Assembly: GCA_003168075.1 (NCBI GenBank)
Contig: PMTL01000158.1
Span: 24,156 to 57,691, forward strand
Direction: 5' to 3'
From: Acidimicrobiaceae bacterium
GTDB lineage: Bacteria > Actinomycetota > Acidimicrobiia > Acidimicrobiales > RAAP-2
DNA length: 33,536 nt
Shown: piece after piece, positions 12,064 to 17,900 of the stretch
Layout: the number at the start of each line of letters is the position of its first letter
How positions within the stretch are numbered: the first letter of the stretch is position 1
Made by a program: the position numbers and the translations under genes
Notes under the pieces: model-generated
Databases searched by the model: none
Seen by the model: the letters and a program-made list of their open reading frames with translations, nothing else
What the model was told of the DNA's origin: nothing

Positions 12064-12930
12064 TTAGCTACGGTACCCCGCGAAGATGTCGGTGACGACT
12101 CCGTCGAGTCCGAGGGGATTCGTCACCCGAAAGAACCACTCGGTGCCCATGGCGAACTGGAATTCCTCCTTGGACATCTTCATCCAGAAGGAATCACCAA
12201 TCTGCGAAGCGTGCGCCGCCAACGCGTCGTACTTGGCGTCGGTGACGCTGCTCACGTCGATGGCGGCGCTAATCAACTCGTCGGGGGTTCCCATTTTGAT
12301 CGGCTCGCCGTCCACCATCGGTGGACCGTCGGGTTCGCGCACGATGCCCTTGGCGGCGTCCTCTTCTTGTTGACGGAGTCCCTCTTGCTCCCAACGCTCG
12401 CGCATCAGACCCATAATGGAGTCGGGAATCGCGTTGTAATACAAGGTGGGTTCGTAATCGATCAATTCCAATGCCGCCAGGGTGATGCGGTTGGCCTGGA
12501 TGTGATCCGGGTGACCATAAAAGCCGAACGCGTTGTAGGTCATGACGACCTGGGGGCGCTCGGCCATCAAGACCTCCGCCAACTTCGCGGCACCGTCGGC
12601 CACGGGGGTCGCCCAGAAGCTCTCCGGGTCGTCGTTCTGGGGCCAGCCCATCATGCCCGAGTCGCGGTAGCCCAGTCGGACGAGCCGCGAGATGCCCAGT
12701 ACCTCGACGGCCTGGTCGAGTTCTATGGCGCGCACGCCGGCGACGAGGTCTCCGTCGTGGTGATCGGCGTCAGGTTTGGCTCCATCGGGAGCGTCACCGC
12801 ACTCGCCGTTGGTGCAGGTGACCAGCACCGTGCGCACCCCTTGATTGGCGAGCAATCGATACAGTCCGCCCGTCGAGCTCGCTTCATCGTCGGGGTGCGC
12901 GTGCACCGCCAGGAATGTCAATTCACTCAA
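12064..12930 (-). CDS. PIG-L family N-acetyl deacetylase/amidase (MshB/Mca/LmbE-like), copy 1
   Basis: A 288-residue zinc-dependent PIG-L deacetylase. The N-terminal AHPDDE (11-16) supplies zinc ligands and the catalytic aspartate, and the third zinc ligand is in GHPDHI near 140. In actinobacteria this family contains MshB (GlcNAc-Ins deacetylase of mycothiol synthesis) and Mca (mycothiol S-conjugate amidase); the length equals Mca as I remember it, but the core also resembles MshB, so I leave it unassigned. The start is a TTG at 12930: GGAGG lies 6 nt before it and TTGA overlaps the stop of the upstream paralogue by 4 nt. The longer in-frame start at 12987 would lie inside that paralogue. 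Confidence 0.85.
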   Translation of the reverse strand: MSELTFLAVHAHPDDEASSTGGLYRLLANQGVRTVLVTCTNGECGDAPDGAKPDADHHDGDLVAGVRAIELDQAVEVLGISRLVRLGYRDSGMMGWPQNDDPESFWATPVADGAAKLAEVLMAERPQVVMTYNAFGFYGHPDHIQANRITLAALELIDYEPTLYYNAIPDSIMGLMRERWEQEGLRQQEEDAAKGIVREPDGPPMVDGEPIKMGTPDELISAAIDVSSVTDAKYDALAAHASQIGDSFWMKMSKEEFQFAMGTEWFFRVTNPLGLDGVVTDIFAGYRS

Positions 12931-13742
12931 CTCAGTCCTCCAAACAAATCTTCGGCACAGGCTACCGATGTGTTGTCGCGTCGCCAACCGAGTTGGTAGT
13001 ACTCCGTGCCAAAGAGCAGGGAAAACAACTCCGGCGCCATGGTGACCAGGTCGGCGTTGTCCACCTGAGAATCATGCGTCGCAATGGCCCCCTGCTTGAG
13101 GGCGCTAAAACGCGACACGTCCATCACGCAGTCGACCGAATCGTCGGGAATGTTCGCCACGGCGTCCTCGATCCACGCCGGCAGAAACACGACCTGTTCT
13201 CGAGATTGAGCGACGAATGAGCTCAGCACTCCACGCGGCACCACGGGATAGAAGAGGCGCTGGGCGCGGGTGCTCAACTCCACCGCTCGGCGCGCCACGA
13301 TGTTGGCCATCACGTGGTCGGGGTGCCCGTAGAAGCCGTTCTCGTCGTACGTGACGACCACCGCGGCATCTTCTTGATCGATGATGTCGGCGAGCACCCG
13401 CGCGGTGGTCTCGACGTCGACGTTCATGAAGGCGTCGGGGTCCTGGTTCGCGAGCCAACCCATCATTCCCGAATCCAGGTAACCCAACGTGATCTGGCGC
13501 GCGTATCCCACGAGGGCCCCGGCGCGCTGGAGTTCGCCGGCGCGCGTTGCGCGCGTGGCGAGCGCATTGTGTCCCGGCTGGGCGCCGTTGCGGCCATGAT
13601 CGTCCAACCCCAATTGACCGAGGGTGCAGGTAACCAGAACGCAGCGGTACCCCTGCTCGGCGTAGTGCGAGGTGATGCCCGCGGTGAAGATCGCTTCGTC
13701 GTCGGGGTGCGCGTGCACGCACAGCAGGGTGTGAGACGTCAT
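12927..13742 (-). CDS. PIG-L family N-acetyl deacetylase/amidase (MshB/Mca/LmbE-like), copy 2
   Basis: A 271-residue paralogue of the next gene, with the same AHPDDE motif at 11-16, a shared LGYxDSGMMGW stretch, and the zinc-binding GHPDHV. The tandem arrangement with a 4-nt overlap indicates gene duplication with co-translation and possibly different substrates; the region after the second zinc motif has diverged most. The gene follows the NRAMP-like gene by 9 bases, so all three are probably one transcript. Deacetylation of an N-acetylglucosaminyl compound, or hydrolysis of a thiol conjugate, is the expected chemistry. No other mycothiol gene is in view. Confidence 0.85.
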   Translation of the reverse strand: MTSHTLLCVHAHPDDEAIFTAGITSHYAEQGYRCVLVTCTLGQLGLDDHGRNGAQPGHNALATRATRAGELQRAGALVGYARQITLGYLDSGMMGWLANQDPDAFMNVDVETTARVLADIIDQEDAAVVVTYDENGFYGHPDHVMANIVARRAVELSTRAQRLFYPVVPRGVLSSFVAQSREQVVFLPAWIEDAVANIPDDSVDCVMDVSRFSALKQGAIATHDSQVDNADLVTMAPELFSLLFGTEYYQLGWRRDNTSVACAEDLFGGLS

Positions 13743-13751
13743 TAGGAGAGC

Positions 13752-15329
13752 CTACGAGGTCGAAATCTGAATAATACGAACGACCAACAGCGTGCCCGCG
13801 GTGAAGAGATACGCGCTCTGACCGCGCATCAGCCAGCGTCGAGCTCGCGAACTGGGCAGTGGCGTCAACAGCGTCAGTCGCGGCGTTCGCCAGTCGCGGC
13901 GATCGATATCGAACTTTGGCGGCGGTGCCATCTTGCGTAGTCCAATCGGCAGACCAATCGCGAGTCCCACCACGGCGGCGACCGCCATGCACTCGAGGAG
14001 CACGATGACGTTCACCGAGGTGAACAGGGTAGAGACCATGAGACCGATCGACAGAACCACAAGGATCGTCACGATGGTGATGGCGATAGCGTTGAGCCAC
14101 TTCGGATTGACCCAGGGGCCCATGACCGCCCGGTCATTGCAGAGGAGCAGCACGATGATGGTCGTGGAGGGCAGCATCAATCCGCAGATGGCCTGCACCG
14201 CCAGGGTGATCAGCCCCAGGGGCGCGTGCGGAATGACCGCCACGGTGCCGGCCACCGCTAACAGGGCCGCGAAGCCCCCGTAGAAACCCCTGGCCTCCGA
14301 AAAGCGCGCATTGAGACCCTGGTGAGTACTCGAGAGGTCGCCAATGGCGTAGGAACTAGCGAGCGTCACCGCGGCGGCGCCGATCACCGACGCATTGAGC
14401 AAGAGAATCGCGAAGAGCCCACCCGCGCCATGTCCGACGTAGTGGTTGAGCCCGTGCGCTACGTCCAGGGCCGACGTGAAGGCGTTCGTACCACCGTGAC
14501 CCGAGAGTCCCGCCGCGGCGGCGGCCAGCAACGCCGAAGCGCCGACGACAACGATGATCGAGCCGATGATGGTGTCCACACGCTCGTAGTTCAACCAGCG
14601 CGGCGTGATCTTCTTGTCGACGATGTTGGACTCTTGAAAGAAGAGCTGCCAGGGCGCGACGGTGGTGCCAATGATCGAGATGATGAGCAGCACCGCGGTG
14701 GAGGTCGCCCCCCCGCGGATGCCCGGGGCGACCGCGTGCACCACCACCTGATGGAACTGGGGCTTGGTCACAACGATGAGGGGTATGACAAAAAGATTGA
14801 CGGCGACGAAGAGCATCATGAACCGTTCCCATCGTCGGAACGATCCCGTGGCCGTCACCGCGAACAGCAGGGCAACGGCAACTGGTACCGACCAGAGAGG
14901 TGAGACCCCGAAGTACTCCATCGACAGCGAGATTCCAATGAACTCGGTCACGATAATCAAAAAGTTCAAGAACAAGATGGAGAAGATCGACAGGTTGCCC
15001 CAGTAGCGCCCGAATCGCTCGCGAATGAGGCGTCCGTGCCCGACGCCGGTCACCGCGCCGAGTCGGGCAACCATCTCCTGGACGATGATGAGCACCGGAA
15101 TGAGAAGCGGCAGCGTCCACAGCAGCGTGTAGCCGTAATTCTGACCGGCCTGAGCGTAGGTGGACACGCCACCGGCGTCGTTGTCCCCCACCATGACGAT
15201 GAGACCGGGCCCGATGATAGCGAGCAGCGTGAGGAGACGAGCGCGTGCGCCGCGACGTCCGATGGCGTCGTGCGACGTAATCGTGCCGAAGGCCCCGGTG
15301 ATCTGATTCTCGAGTGACTTCTCGCTCAC
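13752..15329 (-). CDS. NRAMP/SLC11-family divalent metal transporter with non-canonical metal-site motifs
   Basis: A 525-residue multi-spanning transporter with the NRAMP fold (about 11 hydrophobic segments). In helix 1 the canonical DPGN metal motif is replaced by DNDAGG, and in helix 6 the canonical MPH is replaced by APW (TVAPWQLFFQES), so the sulfur ligand that favours Mn and Fe is absent. Such changes are seen in NRAMP relatives that carry other ions, including the magnesium-transporting NRMT group; that assignment is inference. The start is the GTG at 15329, with an excellent AAGGAGGTG about 6 nt upstream. An ORF extension to 15371 would run into the leader hairpins. It follows the soluble MgtE-N/CBS gene on the same strand. 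Confidence 0.87.
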   Translation of the reverse strand: MSEKSLENQITGAFGTITSHDAIGRRGARARLLTLLAIIGPGLIVMVGDNDAGGVSTYAQAGQNYGYTLLWTLPLLIPVLIIVQEMVARLGAVTGVGHGRLIRERFGRYWGNLSIFSILFLNFLIIVTEFIGISLSMEYFGVSPLWSVPVAVALLFAVTATGSFRRWERFMMLFVAVNLFVIPLIVVTKPQFHQVVVHAVAPGIRGGATSTAVLLIISIIGTTVAPWQLFFQESNIVDKKITPRWLNYERVDTIIGSIIVVVGASALLAAAAAGLSGHGGTNAFTSALDVAHGLNHYVGHGAGGLFAILLLNASVIGAAAVTLASSYAIGDLSSTHQGLNARFSEARGFYGGFAALLAVAGTVAVIPHAPLGLITLAVQAICGLMLPSTTIIVLLLCNDRAVMGPWVNPKWLNAIAITIVTILVVLSIGLMVSTLFTSVNVIVLLECMAVAAVVGLAIGLPIGLRKMAPPPKFDIDRRDWRTPRLTLLTPLPSSRARRWLMRGQSAYLFTAGTLLVVRIIQISTS

Positions 15330-15509
15330 GCTCCACCTCCTTTCGTTCTCTCGTGGTCGTTGGCGATACAACCACGCAGGGACGAAAGGCGCTAGGGGCG
15401 CGCCTCGTCGCTCACGAGCGGTTGAGTCGAGTCAGGGACAGCTCTGTAGCTGGTACTAGGGGGTTTCAGACAAGCCCCCTTAGAACGGTGCGACCAACGA
15501 GCGGGGACA
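15330..15509 (-). promoter_or_regulatory. Hairpin-rich leader of the NRAMP-like gene, candidate cis-regulatory RNA
   Basis: The 180 nt between the MgtE-N/CBS gene and the transporter hold five consecutive stem-loops (plus-strand coordinates): 15458-15480 (six G-C/A-T pairs, 11-nt loop), 15439-15452 (CAGCT with AGCTG), 15409-15420 (CGCTC with GAGCG), 15381-15409 (5+5 bp with a 2-nt bulge) and 15352-15376 (8 bp with one wobble). They end 14 nt before the Shine-Dalgarno sequence. The first could be the terminator of the upstream gene. The remainder look like a structured leader. I do not recognise a known riboswitch class; M-box and yybP-ykoY signatures are not apparent. Confidence 0.45.
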
Positions 15510-16769
15510 TTATTCCTCCACCGCCGTCATCCCGAATTCCTTGCGCCAACCCTGCGGCAACAACTCTTCGAGAAGGTCGTCAACGGTAATCACGCCGATC
15601 ATGACGCTGTGCTCCTCGTCGAGCACGGGCACCACGGTCAAGTTGAAGTCGCTCATCTTGCGCGCCACGCGGTGCAGGTCCCAGTGCGGGTGCACGTGGC
15701 TGAGCTGCGTGCGCGCCACGCTCACCGCGAGTTCGGGGCCGCGCGCCTTGACGAGCGAACCCAACGAAGCGGAACCAATCGTCTTGCCCTCTTCACTCGT
15801 GACGAACACCGCGTGCAGAGACTCCGCGGGGACGTTGGAGGTGCGAATGGCCTCGAGGGCGTCGGCGACGGTGGCCATTTCGGGCACCGAGACGAAGTCG
15901 GTGTTCATCAGACCGCCCGCGGTGTCAGAGTTGTACGAGAGGAGCTGGCGAACTTTGACCTGTTGGTGCGACGGCAGGTTCTCCAAAATCGGAAGTCGAC
16001 GCTCCTGGTCGATCTCGTTGATCAAGTCCGCCGCGTTGTCGGGCTCCATGCGCGCCAAGAGCCGCGCGGCCTCGACGTCGCTACGCGACTGGAGGAATTC
16101 GAGCTGGTGCTCGGTGTCGAGCTCCTCAAAGACGTCGGCCTCGAGTTCACGATCGAGTCCCACTGCTTCAATGATCTCCTCGCCCTCCTCGTGGCTGGCC
16201 TGCTCGACGAGGTCGGCGATCTGCGCGGGGTGCAGTTTGGACAGCTTGCGGTACGGGATACGCAGTCGCGCCGAGGGCACGTGTGAGACGAAGGGCTCGA
16301 TGGAGGCGAAGTCGACGATGGCGTCGGCCTGAACCCGCTGGCCCATGCGCTGGCCGAGGACCCGGCGAAAGAAGGGACGACGACCCGGATCGACGCCGAC
16401 CACTTCCCAGCGCCCCTCGATCTGGGCGATTTCGATCTCGTTGGCGATGATGAGACGCCCTCGGACCAGGTTGATCAGGTGGCGTGCCAGCAAGTCTTCG
16501 GCGAGCAACAATTCCCCGGGGCGCCGTTCGAAACGCCGCAAGTCCACGCGGGGACCCTGGAACGTCATGCGCCCCTCAGCGAGTCCGCCGATCTTTCGAA
16601 TAGGTACAAAGAGATTGCGGCCCTCGATGCGGATCACCGCTCCCACGATCGGCGGGTGCGCGTCGTCGCCGAGACGCGCGACCAGGTCCTGGACGCGGCC
16701 AATCCGGTCACCATCCTGGTCAAAGATGGGACGACGAAGAAACGTGGAGAGGTGAAGGATGTCAGTCAT
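15510..16769 (-). CDS. Soluble PRC-barrel / MgtE N-domain / CBS-pair protein
   Basis: A 419-residue protein built from parts of the MgtE magnesium channel but with no membrane segment. A PRC-barrel-like N-terminus (about 8-65, probably repeated to about 160) precedes an MgtE_N superhelix (about 175-285) with the acidic repeats EELDTEHQLEFL and MEPDNAADLI, and then a CBS pair (about 290-410). In MgtE these cytoplasmic domains bind Mg2+ and gate the pore; here the pore domain is missing. The next gene downstream encodes an NRAMP-like transporter, so the protein may sense Mg2+ or nucleotide for that transporter. There is no clear Shine-Dalgarno; TAGCCT, a -10-like box, lies 21 nt before the ATG. 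Confidence 0.88.
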   Translation of the reverse strand: MTDILHLSTFLRRPIFDQDGDRIGRVQDLVARLGDDAHPPIVGAVIRIEGRNLFVPIRKIGGLAEGRMTFQGPRVDLRRFERRPGELLLAEDLLARHLINLVRGRLIIANEIEIAQIEGRWEVVGVDPGRRPFFRRVLGQRMGQRVQADAIVDFASIEPFVSHVPSARLRIPYRKLSKLHPAQIADLVEQASHEEGEEIIEAVGLDRELEADVFEELDTEHQLEFLQSRSDVEAARLLARMEPDNAADLINEIDQERRLPILENLPSHQQVKVRQLLSYNSDTAGGLMNTDFVSVPEMATVADALEAIRTSNVPAESLHAVFVTSEEGKTIGSASLGSLVKARGPELAVSVARTQLSHVHPHWDLHRVARKMSDFNLTVVPVLDEEHSVMIGVITVDDLLEELLPQGWRKEFGMTAVEE

Positions 16770-16874
16770 AGTGCACTCGAAAGCCCTCTTAGGCTACCCC
16801 CATCCCCGCAGCAGCGACCAACCGAGGTCAGTGAACTTCTGGCGAACAGCGCTGGTCAGGCCGGTGACGTCGAC

Positions 16875-17900
16875 CTAGTTCATTGGGGCAAACGAGGTCA
16901 GGACTTCCTCCACGACATCGAGGTCGTCGTCGGTGACGCCGGCGTGGGTGACAAATCTCACTCGGCGCGGTGCGATGGTGCCGCCGCGCACGCCGAGTTC
17001 GCTCAATTCGTGCACGATCTGTCGAGCCTGGGGGTGGTTGAAACTGACGATATTGGTCCGACACGTCGTCGGGTCGTAGTCCGATTCCGGGAAAGCGGCC
17101 GCGAACATATCGGCCAGTCGACGTGCTCGTGCGTGATCGTCGCCCAGGCGTTGCACCATCGTGTCGAGGGCCACGAGACCGGCCGCGGCCAGGACGCCGG
17201 CTTGGCGCATCGTTCCTCCGAGACGCTTTCTCTCCACGCGCGCCGCGCTCATCAACGATTGGGAACCGGCGAGCACCGAGCCGACCGGGGCGCAGAGTCC
17301 CTTCGACAGGCAGGCCATCACCGTCGTGGCCGGGGCCGCGATGTCGCGGGGCTGCTCTCCCGTGGCGACGGCGGCGTTGAAGAGTCTCGCGCCGTCCATG
17401 TGAATCGGTCGTCCGTCGAGGGCGCGCGCCAGCGACACCAAGTGCCGCGTGTTCCAGGGCGTCCCTCCCGAGGGCATGTGAGTGTTCTCGACTGCGACCA
17501 TGGCCACGTGGACCTGATGGTCCTGCTCGGCGTCGATGACGTCCATCACGTCTTCGAGCGCCAACTCCCCCGACGCGTCGTCCACGAGGGCGAACTGCAC
17601 CGACGAATTGCGCGCCGACGCGCCCATCTCGAAACTCACGACGTGCTGACTCCTGCCGGCGACGATCACGTCGCCCGGACGGGTCAACACCCGCACGGCG
17701 ATCTGATTCGCCATCACGCCCGACGGGACGAAGAGCGCTTCGTCCTTGCCCACGAGTGCCGCGAACTTCTCCTCGAGGGCACGAATCGTGGGGTCTTCAC
17801 CGAACCCGTCGTCTCCCACCTCGGCGTTGGCCATCGCCTCGCGCATCTCGGAGGTCGGCTGGGTCACGGTATCGGAACGAAGGTCGACGTAGCGGGTCAT
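16875..17900 (-). CDS. ltaE: Low-specificity L-threonine aldolase
   Basis: A 341-residue fold-type I PLP enzyme that cleaves threonine or allo-threonine to glycine and acetaldehyde. Visible are the N-terminal [11 protein letters not shown], the EDPT motif, HMDGAR (167-172) with the PLP-ring aspartate, and the PLP-binding lysine K200 in [12 protein letters not shown]. The length is normal. There is no Shine-Dalgarno; TAGCCT (17907-17912, minus strand) ends 6 nt before the ATG, pointing to a leaderless transcript. It is divergent from the thioesterase gene, with only 37 bp between the start codons. Confidence 0.93.

Follow-up and report, generated by a model that had tools for sequence, protein, structure and literature searches.

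A conserved leader candidate and a pore-less MgtE relative at an NRMT-type transporter locus of Acidimicrobiaceae

What does the cytosolic part of a magnesium channel do next to a transporter related to NRAMP proteins, and is it the only device that could control this transporter? The question is raised by a stretch of 33,536 nucleotides (nt) from an Acidimicrobiaceae bacterium (GenBank assembly GCA_003168075.1, contig PMTL01000158.1, positions 24,156 to 57,691; hereafter the window), in which a gene for a stand-alone protein with MgtE_N and CBS domains, here called the sensor, is followed by a transporter gene, both on the minus strand. A first-pass annotation, made from the letters alone, had suggested that an MgtE-type gate was split off and reused to control the transporter; it did not mention the conserved element that lies between the two genes. 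We lean, by a little, towards the view that this is an uptake locus for Mg2+ (possibly also Mn2+) with two separate feedback devices, the protein sensor and the leader formed by the gap element.

The transporter matches Pfam Nramp with 249 bits and carries GDNDAGG in helix 1 and GTTVAPW in helix 6, which bears out the altered motifs (DNDAGG and APW) described in the first-pass annotation; of 88 aligned sequences, the window's included, 84 have GDNDAGG and 86 have GTTVAPW or GTTIAPW. With DAGG and TTVA it displays the NRMT signature, defined in the work on EleNRMT (PMC8806188) as DxxG in helix 1 and TxxA/T in helix 6. The closest solved chain by sequence is EleNRMT itself (7qia, E-value 3.9e-62), followed by 10ky (1.1e-24) and by others at 4.3e-13 or weaker. 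In a tree of 97 rows calculated by a quick method (the row L005_687, named by its locus, is the second, other NRAMP of L005), 68 rows including EleNRMT form an NRMT clade with a Shimodaira-Hasegawa-like approximate likelihood ratio test value (SH-aLRT) of 98, and the window protein is found inside it, apart from the NRAMPs with DPGN and MPH, rather than among the Mn/Fe NRAMPs, the grouping that would have counted against the first-pass annotation. Its own branch is a "long-type" subclade distinct from that of EleNRMT. The predicted structure (pLDDT 84) matches NRAMP structures, and since DMT1 (Z 40.2) and EleNRMT (Z 38.3) match similarly closely, the fold alone does not decide the clade. EleNRMT, for which transport of both Mg2+ and Mn2+ is described (PMC8806188), shares with the window protein the DxxG-TxxA metal site, the clade and 33% identity over 395 residues of the structural alignment, but differs from it in that the window protein is of the long type, with an added C-terminal loop and helix. 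Comparison therefore shows that the window transporter belongs to the NRMT clade, with Mg2+ carriage as the predicted function. Adjoining this clade in the tree are twelve actinobacterial NRAMP relatives with DPSG-like and ISPY-like sites (L130-L133, L135-L137, L139, L140, L142, L144, L149), none with a sensor nearby; two other loci, L066 and L082, hold a tandem pair of long-type NRMT genes.

Shin et al. 2014 (PMC4072509), in the passages devoted to these genes, state that most NrmT genes adjoin a homologue of the MgtE cytosolic domain and propose feedback control or chaperoning for this neighbour. The window pair is close to certain to be a member of this published arrangement, and the idea of a reused gate, as put forward in the first-pass annotation, is already the speculation of that paper. 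Neither a PRC part nor a partner whose pore has decayed is mentioned in the same passages, the M-box is the one leader named there, and the term PRC-barrel was not found among the open-licence literature matches listed. The nearest relatives of the locus come from Acidimicrobiaceae and other actinobacterial metagenome-assembled genomes, many of them named for bog, palsa and fen sites, while remoter ones include Dormibacterota, Chloroflexi, Alicyclobacillus and Streptomyces. From 80 named relatives, 72 with at least 1200 nt upstream of the transporter could be assessed (the other eight, among them L027, which has a sensor, were set aside); a sensor is present in the locus in 69 of them, in 64 of these 69 upstream on the same strand and within 600 nt by open-frame bounds, and it was not found in the loci L068, L078 and L081. 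A second sample covered 149 genomes of the phylum with 81 NRAMP matches, of which 70 (L088-L157) were examined and 11 were not fetched; 36 loci, including the window, were regarded as NRMT-like from motifs judged by eye, and a sensor was counted as nearby if it matched the sensor model with at least 60 bits. By this measure a sensor stands near 29 of the 36 loci with the NRMT signature vs 1 of the 34 others (Fisher 5e-12). Six of these 34 (L096, L123-L126 and L128) fall in the NRMT clade of the tree, and counted by clade the ratio becomes 30/42 vs 0/28. Thus, the pairing is conserved, as the first-pass annotation required, and its presence in the window is not due to chance. The linkage is kept even where order or strand differs (L043, L063 and L091, the last having its two genes end to end on opposite strands); no fusion of the two proteins in one frame was seen in the window and L004-L087. 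These data sharpen the question posed in 2014 of what the MgtE-like partner does, as they tie it to the NRMT clade.

Six of the seven sensor-less NRMT-like loci have a PRC-like gene directly downstream of the transporter instead, and no MgtE_N-CBS gene was found in their stretches of 9.6-14 kb; five of the six exceed the Pfam PRC cut-off, which L101, with 18 bits, does not reach. In L095, L099, L100, L101, L102 and L105 the short-type transporter gene is followed directly by one for a PRC-like protein of about 190-230 residues, and the same holds for L097, L098 and L107. We considered that this gene could be a part split from the sensor, and rejected the idea because in L097, L098 and L107, viewed in wider stretches (L168, L264, L265), the upstream protein also covers the PRC part of the model; the downstream PRC gene is an extra. 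Likewise rejected was the idea that the sensor needs the approximately 90 extra C-terminal residues of long-type transporters for docking, because short transporters have partners too. On two plasmids (L005 and L006) the sensor, the NRMT gene, a gene of the MgtC/SapB family and an M-box occur together, L005 having also a second NRAMP; as MgtC was seen in these two loci only, it was dismissed as a regular third gene. At L124 (1628-2542) a relative without the NRMT signature (SDDDPAG, LAPW) is preceded by a protein with PRC and a sub-threshold MgtE_N stretch; CBS is missing from this protein, which may be what is left of a sensor.

The sensor itself comprises MgtE_N (72 bits) and CBS (63 bits, in two stretches), and a search with Pfam did not find the MgtE pore domain in it. 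The first-pass annotation was right in this, while the PRC-barrel that it also listed stays below the cut-off in the window protein (16.6 vs 21.2 bits), although homologues of the sensor pass it. The predicted structure (pLDDT 87) resembles cytosolic MgtE structures across both domains, with Z 20.4 and 2.4 A over 242 residues for the Mg2+-bound 2yvy; this leaves the metal state of the sensor undecided, because Mg2+-free MgtE is not among the structures listed. No PRC-barrel chain is among the matches listed for the whole-sensor fold comparison, in which the PRC-like part was not folded alone. With the positions of the metal and ATP sites of Thermus thermophilus MgtE taken from PMC5882242 and PMC5529423, respectively, D91, D95 and D247 correspond to Asp in all 71 long-type sensors compared and E59 to Asp in 70 and Glu in one, and acidic residues are present at Mg4, Mg6 and Mg7 of the N domain and CBS pair; D250, of the Mg5 pair, is Glu in 68 of 71. 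The alignment ends at residue 254, the plug-helix residues E258 and D259 (Mg2, Mg3) being beyond the aligned part. Another 29 partners were compared, 26 of which belong to short-type or L092-L094 loci and some of which are truncated where the locus ends; of these 29, 25 retain D91, 22 retain D95 and 26 retain D247. The kept residues support metal sensing as a probable property of the sensor. In comparison with the MgtE cytosolic domain (2yvy, 2zy9, 8gpv), the window sensor has the same N and CBS fold and Asp at D91, D95, D247 and E59, but it has no pore, shows Asn at D226, has lost the ATP-site residues and has an added N-terminal PRC-like part. The soluble long-type partner thus keeps several Mg2+ residues of the N-CBS region while losing the ATP site.

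How the pore may have been lost is suggested by the residues that follow the CBS pair, surveyed in wider stretches of the sensor-model matches. No tail above 60 residues is found in any of the 72 sensor matches at the named loci. The 29 partners from the phylum sample fall into three groups: 14 lack a real tail (L088-L094, L104, L109, L113, L116, L119, L121, L129); in three the tail is 45 residues long and contains a single hydrophobic segment (L110, L115, L120, the closest to EleNRMT in the transporter tree); and in 12 it measures 196-226 residues, with four or five such segments (L097, L098, L103, L106, L107, L108, L111, L112, L114, L117, L122, L127). In the partner from L117 (L276) the MgtE pore is recognized with 37.8 bits, above the cut-off of 27.6, and the alignment of this protein with T. 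thermophilus MgtE extends across the pore (E-value 1.3e-53), but with Met at D432; three other long-tail partners score 23.9 to 26.3 bits, below the cut-off, and the remaining eight are unlisted. D432 is the Mg1 residue of MgtE, and its mutation is reported to abolish Mg2+ conductance (PMC5882242); Asp is absent from the last hydrophobic segment in all 12 long-tail partners. Descent of the partner from an MgtE channel appears well supported, and comparison shows an apparent decay or loss of the membrane part in the partners of the NRMT clade. Because the partners range over long, one-helix and no tails, what the first-pass annotation called splitting off looks like a gradual loss of the pore; that idea stands as regards descent from the channel and the kept Mg2+-site residues, while gating is a proposal only. 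The series from a pore-like tail without the key Asp, through one helix, to a soluble sensor suggests a channel turned regulatory subunit. Partners with an MgtE-like membrane tail that lacks the pore aspartate look new, and a search of open-licence literature turned up nothing on NRMT neighbours in which an MgtE pore has decayed.

The element in the gap also looks new, nothing on this leader having turned up in the open-licence literature. Its order is that of the core in Table 1 (two strands with a loop between them, one base, AGTACC), then a hairpin ahead of the ribosome-binding site. No Rfam match at gathering scores was obtained for the leader in the window or in 13 relatives, and at E-values up to 5 the one weak hit in the region 15250-17000 of the window fell within the sensor gene, on the opposite strand. 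When the 56-nt core was made into a covariance model, 29 of 90 sequence sources gave matches, 26 of them being training rows or kin of their genomes. In the genus of the window the element is present in 90 of 99 genomes (58 of the 59 good ones) with 91 copies, the NRMT gene being found in 93 of the 99. For 88 copies an NRMT gene follows on the same strand at a distance of 44-397 nt (median 76); the remaining three are near contig ends (G367 C41, which ends 264 nt past the element; G371 C295, with the copy at bases 25-80; and G414 C11, with the copy 343 nt from the contig start, which is on its downstream side). No copy was seen ahead of other genes, the genome of the window holds one copy, and second NRMT copies in six genomes are without the element. 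In twelve genomes the element is joined to an NRMT 54-56% identical to that of the window, and in one to a 48% identical protein, so it has outlived much protein change. A sensor is present at 33 of 34 element-bearing loci with flanks, the exception, L180, being cut short. Comparison of the genomes shows a conserved putative leader ahead of one kind of gene, tied to the NRMT transporter. Other long leaders, alike between loci and without an Rfam match, occupy the sensor-transporter gaps of L047, L048, L050 and L074; L050 and L074 share GAGTACCGACGG, which is reminiscent of the AGTACC of the element.

The pairings proposed for the leader are set out in Table 1; the long-range helix A and helix B among them are mutually exclusive, because both use the strand GUGGUUGU. 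P1, in 86 distinct copies, is paired in 98.8% of cells (98.1% in shuffled controls) with 4 compensated cells vs 0.6 shuffled, but alone it covaries weakly, as versions slid by +1 or +2 score higher. P1 and helix A together, in 28 leaders, show 14 compensated cells vs 3.8 shuffled (0 of 500 shuffles reached this) and at most 6 in slid controls, 13 of the 14 falling in helix A; these counts are tempered by the fact that both sets of pairs were chosen by RNAalifold on the alignment used for counting. The hairpin at the ribosome-binding site, in 40 leaders, shows 30 compensated cells vs 13.0 shuffled (0 of 500) and at most 24 slid, and 84% of its cells are paired vs at most 55% slid; here as above the copies are related, which means that compensated cells are not independent events. 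Leaders were collected by pattern from 87 of 90 loci (L255, L256 and L259 were missed), 70 of them of usable length. The folding z-score is -1.25 for the core and 0.05 for the middle (60 copies), and averages -3.04 for the 3' part (70 copies). The mean pairing probability of the GGAG ribosome site is 0.72 vs 0.60 with the upstream sequence shuffled, and it is higher than the control in 35 of 49 non-redundant leaders (p 0.0012). That the leader is a structured element acting in cis on the transporter gene is well supported, and since helix A and the hairpin are both compensated, the pattern is that expected of a switch. The nearest precedent in kind, as far as its description goes, is the mgtE motif SRC-65-1 (PMC11109978), likewise a riboswitch candidate restricted to one genus, which precedes a gene for a Mg2+ transporter and holds the ribosome-binding site within a stem; it differs in being described from Thioalkalivibrio only, ahead of mgtE, and the comparison is by description, not by sequence.

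Table 1. Features of the sensor-transporter locus (window coordinates)
Feature	Position	Strand	Details
MgtE-N/CBS protein (stand-alone sensor)	15510..16769	minus	419 aa; domain search, predicted structure
Sensor parts (residues)			beta-rich PRC-like N-terminal part ~1-160; MgtE_N 179-282; CBS pair ~284-405; no pore
Core of conserved element (covariance model R1)	15437..15492	minus	GTTCTAAGGGGG-loop-CTGAAACCCCC-T-AGTACC
P1 hairpin	15459..15479	minus	GGGGG (15479-15475) / CCCCC (15463-15459)
Long-range helix A	15369..15424	minus	CAACC (15424-15420) / GGUUG (15373-15369)
Helix B	15353..15375	minus	GUGGUUGU (15375-15368) / ACGACCAC (15360-15353); top of ribosome-site hairpin
Outer stem	15339..15389	minus	CCUUUCGU (15389-15382) / ACGAAAGG (15346-15339); takes in 5' part of Shine-Dalgarno
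Shine-Dalgarno of transporter gene	15336..15343	minus	AAAGGAGG
NRMT-type transporter gene	13752..15329	minus	preferred GTG start 15329

The M-box riboswitch (RF00380) offers a hint as to what such a leader could respond to. In the phylum sample 12 M-boxes occur in 10 genomes, and nine of them precede NRMT or the sensor gene paired with it, at distances of up to about 2.1 kb from NRMT. Within the long-type subclade an M-box is found in 11 of 58 loci scanned, in nine shortly ahead of the transporter gene, and in L037, L045 and L072 it occupies the sensor-transporter gap. In some relatives, then, the M-box is in the same gap or directly upstream of NRMT, whereas the element of the window matches neither RF00380 nor another Rfam model. 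No M-box was found in the window or the 13 near relatives scanned, in any of the 99 genomes of the genus, or, at E-values up to 1, in L078. In L118, whose transporter is 54% identical to the window protein, an M-box is present and a sensor was not found nearby. When L060 and L082 (less than 200 nt upstream) are dropped, an M-box accompanies four of six sensor-less vs seven of 50 sensor-bearing loci of the long-type subclade (Fisher p 0.011); a trade-off of the sensor against the M-box is suggestive only, because two of the four sensor-less loci with an M-box are from Alicyclobacillus.

We propose that the leader, a candidate lineage-specific RNA switch, would toggle between two states: in one, helix A forms and leaves the ribosome-binding site accessible; in the other, the site is buried in the hairpin that includes helix B. 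Abundant ligand would favour burial and hence less translation of the transporter. Because of its position behind the sensor gene, the leader would control the transporter and leave the sensor unaffected, forming a second control point beside the protein, which likely feeds back on the transporter. That the leader senses Mg2+ we infer from the gene context and from the M-box found in the same place in some relatives. A more specific version, in which the leader is a new lineage-specific metal riboswitch, probably for Mg2+, that takes the place of the M-box and works by hiding the ribosome-binding site, with a captured MgtE remnant as regulatory subunit, we offer tentatively, as a scenario that falls somewhat short of an even chance. 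If the leader does bind Mg2+, it would join the few known Mg2+-sensing RNAs and provide a case of one riboswitch class taking the place of another at the same gene.

A number of observations weigh against the proposed double control. The element is seen in one genus only: when 198 genomes of the order were sampled, all six matches came from within it. Of the 30 compensated cells of the ribosome-site hairpin, 23 belong to the inner stem, five to the outer stem and two to helix B; two slid versions of the hairpin have more doubly changed pairs than the true one (11 and 9 vs 8), and RNAalifold found no pairs on the gappy 40-leader alignment of this hairpin. In whole leaders the ribosome site is more paired than the control in 18 of 28 cases (means 0.85 vs 0.77), and in the window itself it is below the control (0.78 vs 0.81). 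As regards the sensor, Asn stands in place of D226 of the Mg5 site in 70 of the 71 long-type proteins (and in 18 of the 29 other partners), and the ATP-site residues are lost in the long type, F227 being Leu in 70 of 71 and Y170 and R187 not kept, while the other partners keep Tyr170 in 22 and Arg187 in 18 cases. Finally, in the experiments on the Acidobacterium capsulatum pair reported in PMC4072509, co-expression of the sensor did not improve rescue of the Mg2+ defect, and the transporter behaved as a Mn2+ importer.

The last result bears directly on the possibility that the transporter imports Mn2+ and that sensor and leader respond to Mn2+. The A. capsulatum NrmT, which has an MgtE-fragment neighbour and no M-box, as is the case in the window, rescued Mn2+ uptake well, rather than Mg2+ uptake, and supported growth of the Mg2+ mutant only at low millimolar Mg2+ (PMC4072509); EleNRMT, too, carries Mn2+ in addition to Mg2+. 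However, the same long-type subclade has M-boxes, including those in L004, L068, L081 and L118, the sensor retains Asp at several Mg2+ sites of MgtE, and a profile search of the host genome (84.7% complete) found neither CorA nor an MgtE pore, but only one MgtA-like P-type ATPase above the cut-off. We consider such a Mn2+ system unlikely. Nor do we expect, though with a little less assurance, that the MgtE-like protein is a chaperone or acts on other targets instead of gating the transporter: Shin et al. offered the chaperone idea, and the co-expression without effect was in B. subtilis, but the linkage is clade-specific and survives altered order or strand, and some partners retain a membrane part without the pore Asp.

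As for the leader, it could be a real regulatory RNA whose ligand is a protein or another metabolite and not a metal. The ligand is not derivable from sequence alone, and genus-restricted leaders without an assigned ligand exist, the mgtE motif being one as described in PMC11109978; on the other hand, nearly all copies are ahead of an NRMT gene, the other three being near contig ends, and the leader holds the place that the M-box has in L037, L045 and L072, which makes a non-metal ligand rather improbable in our opinion. It is very unlikely that the conserved stretch serves only as an operator in the DNA or as an ordinary region of translation initiation. The part that is conserved most strongly is indeed short, and P1 is mostly invariant, so that pairing there is weakly tested, but compensatory changes occur in both the ribosome-site hairpin and helix A, the 3' part is strongly folded, and the element lies after the sensor stop, with stop triplets in two of the three forward frames of its first 41 nt.

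The boundaries of the leader depend on where the transporter begins. The open reading frame listed in the first-pass annotation extends over 13752-15371 on the minus strand (539 aa), and we take the GTG at 15329 as the start because the Shine-Dalgarno sequence AAAGGAGG sits 6 nt ahead of it; in this case 15330-15371 would belong to the leader. Next to the transporter gene, also on the minus strand, are two overlapping frames (12064-12987 and 12927-13742), whose mutually similar proteins contain the motif HAHPDDEA and which we take to be LmbE/PIG-L-like.

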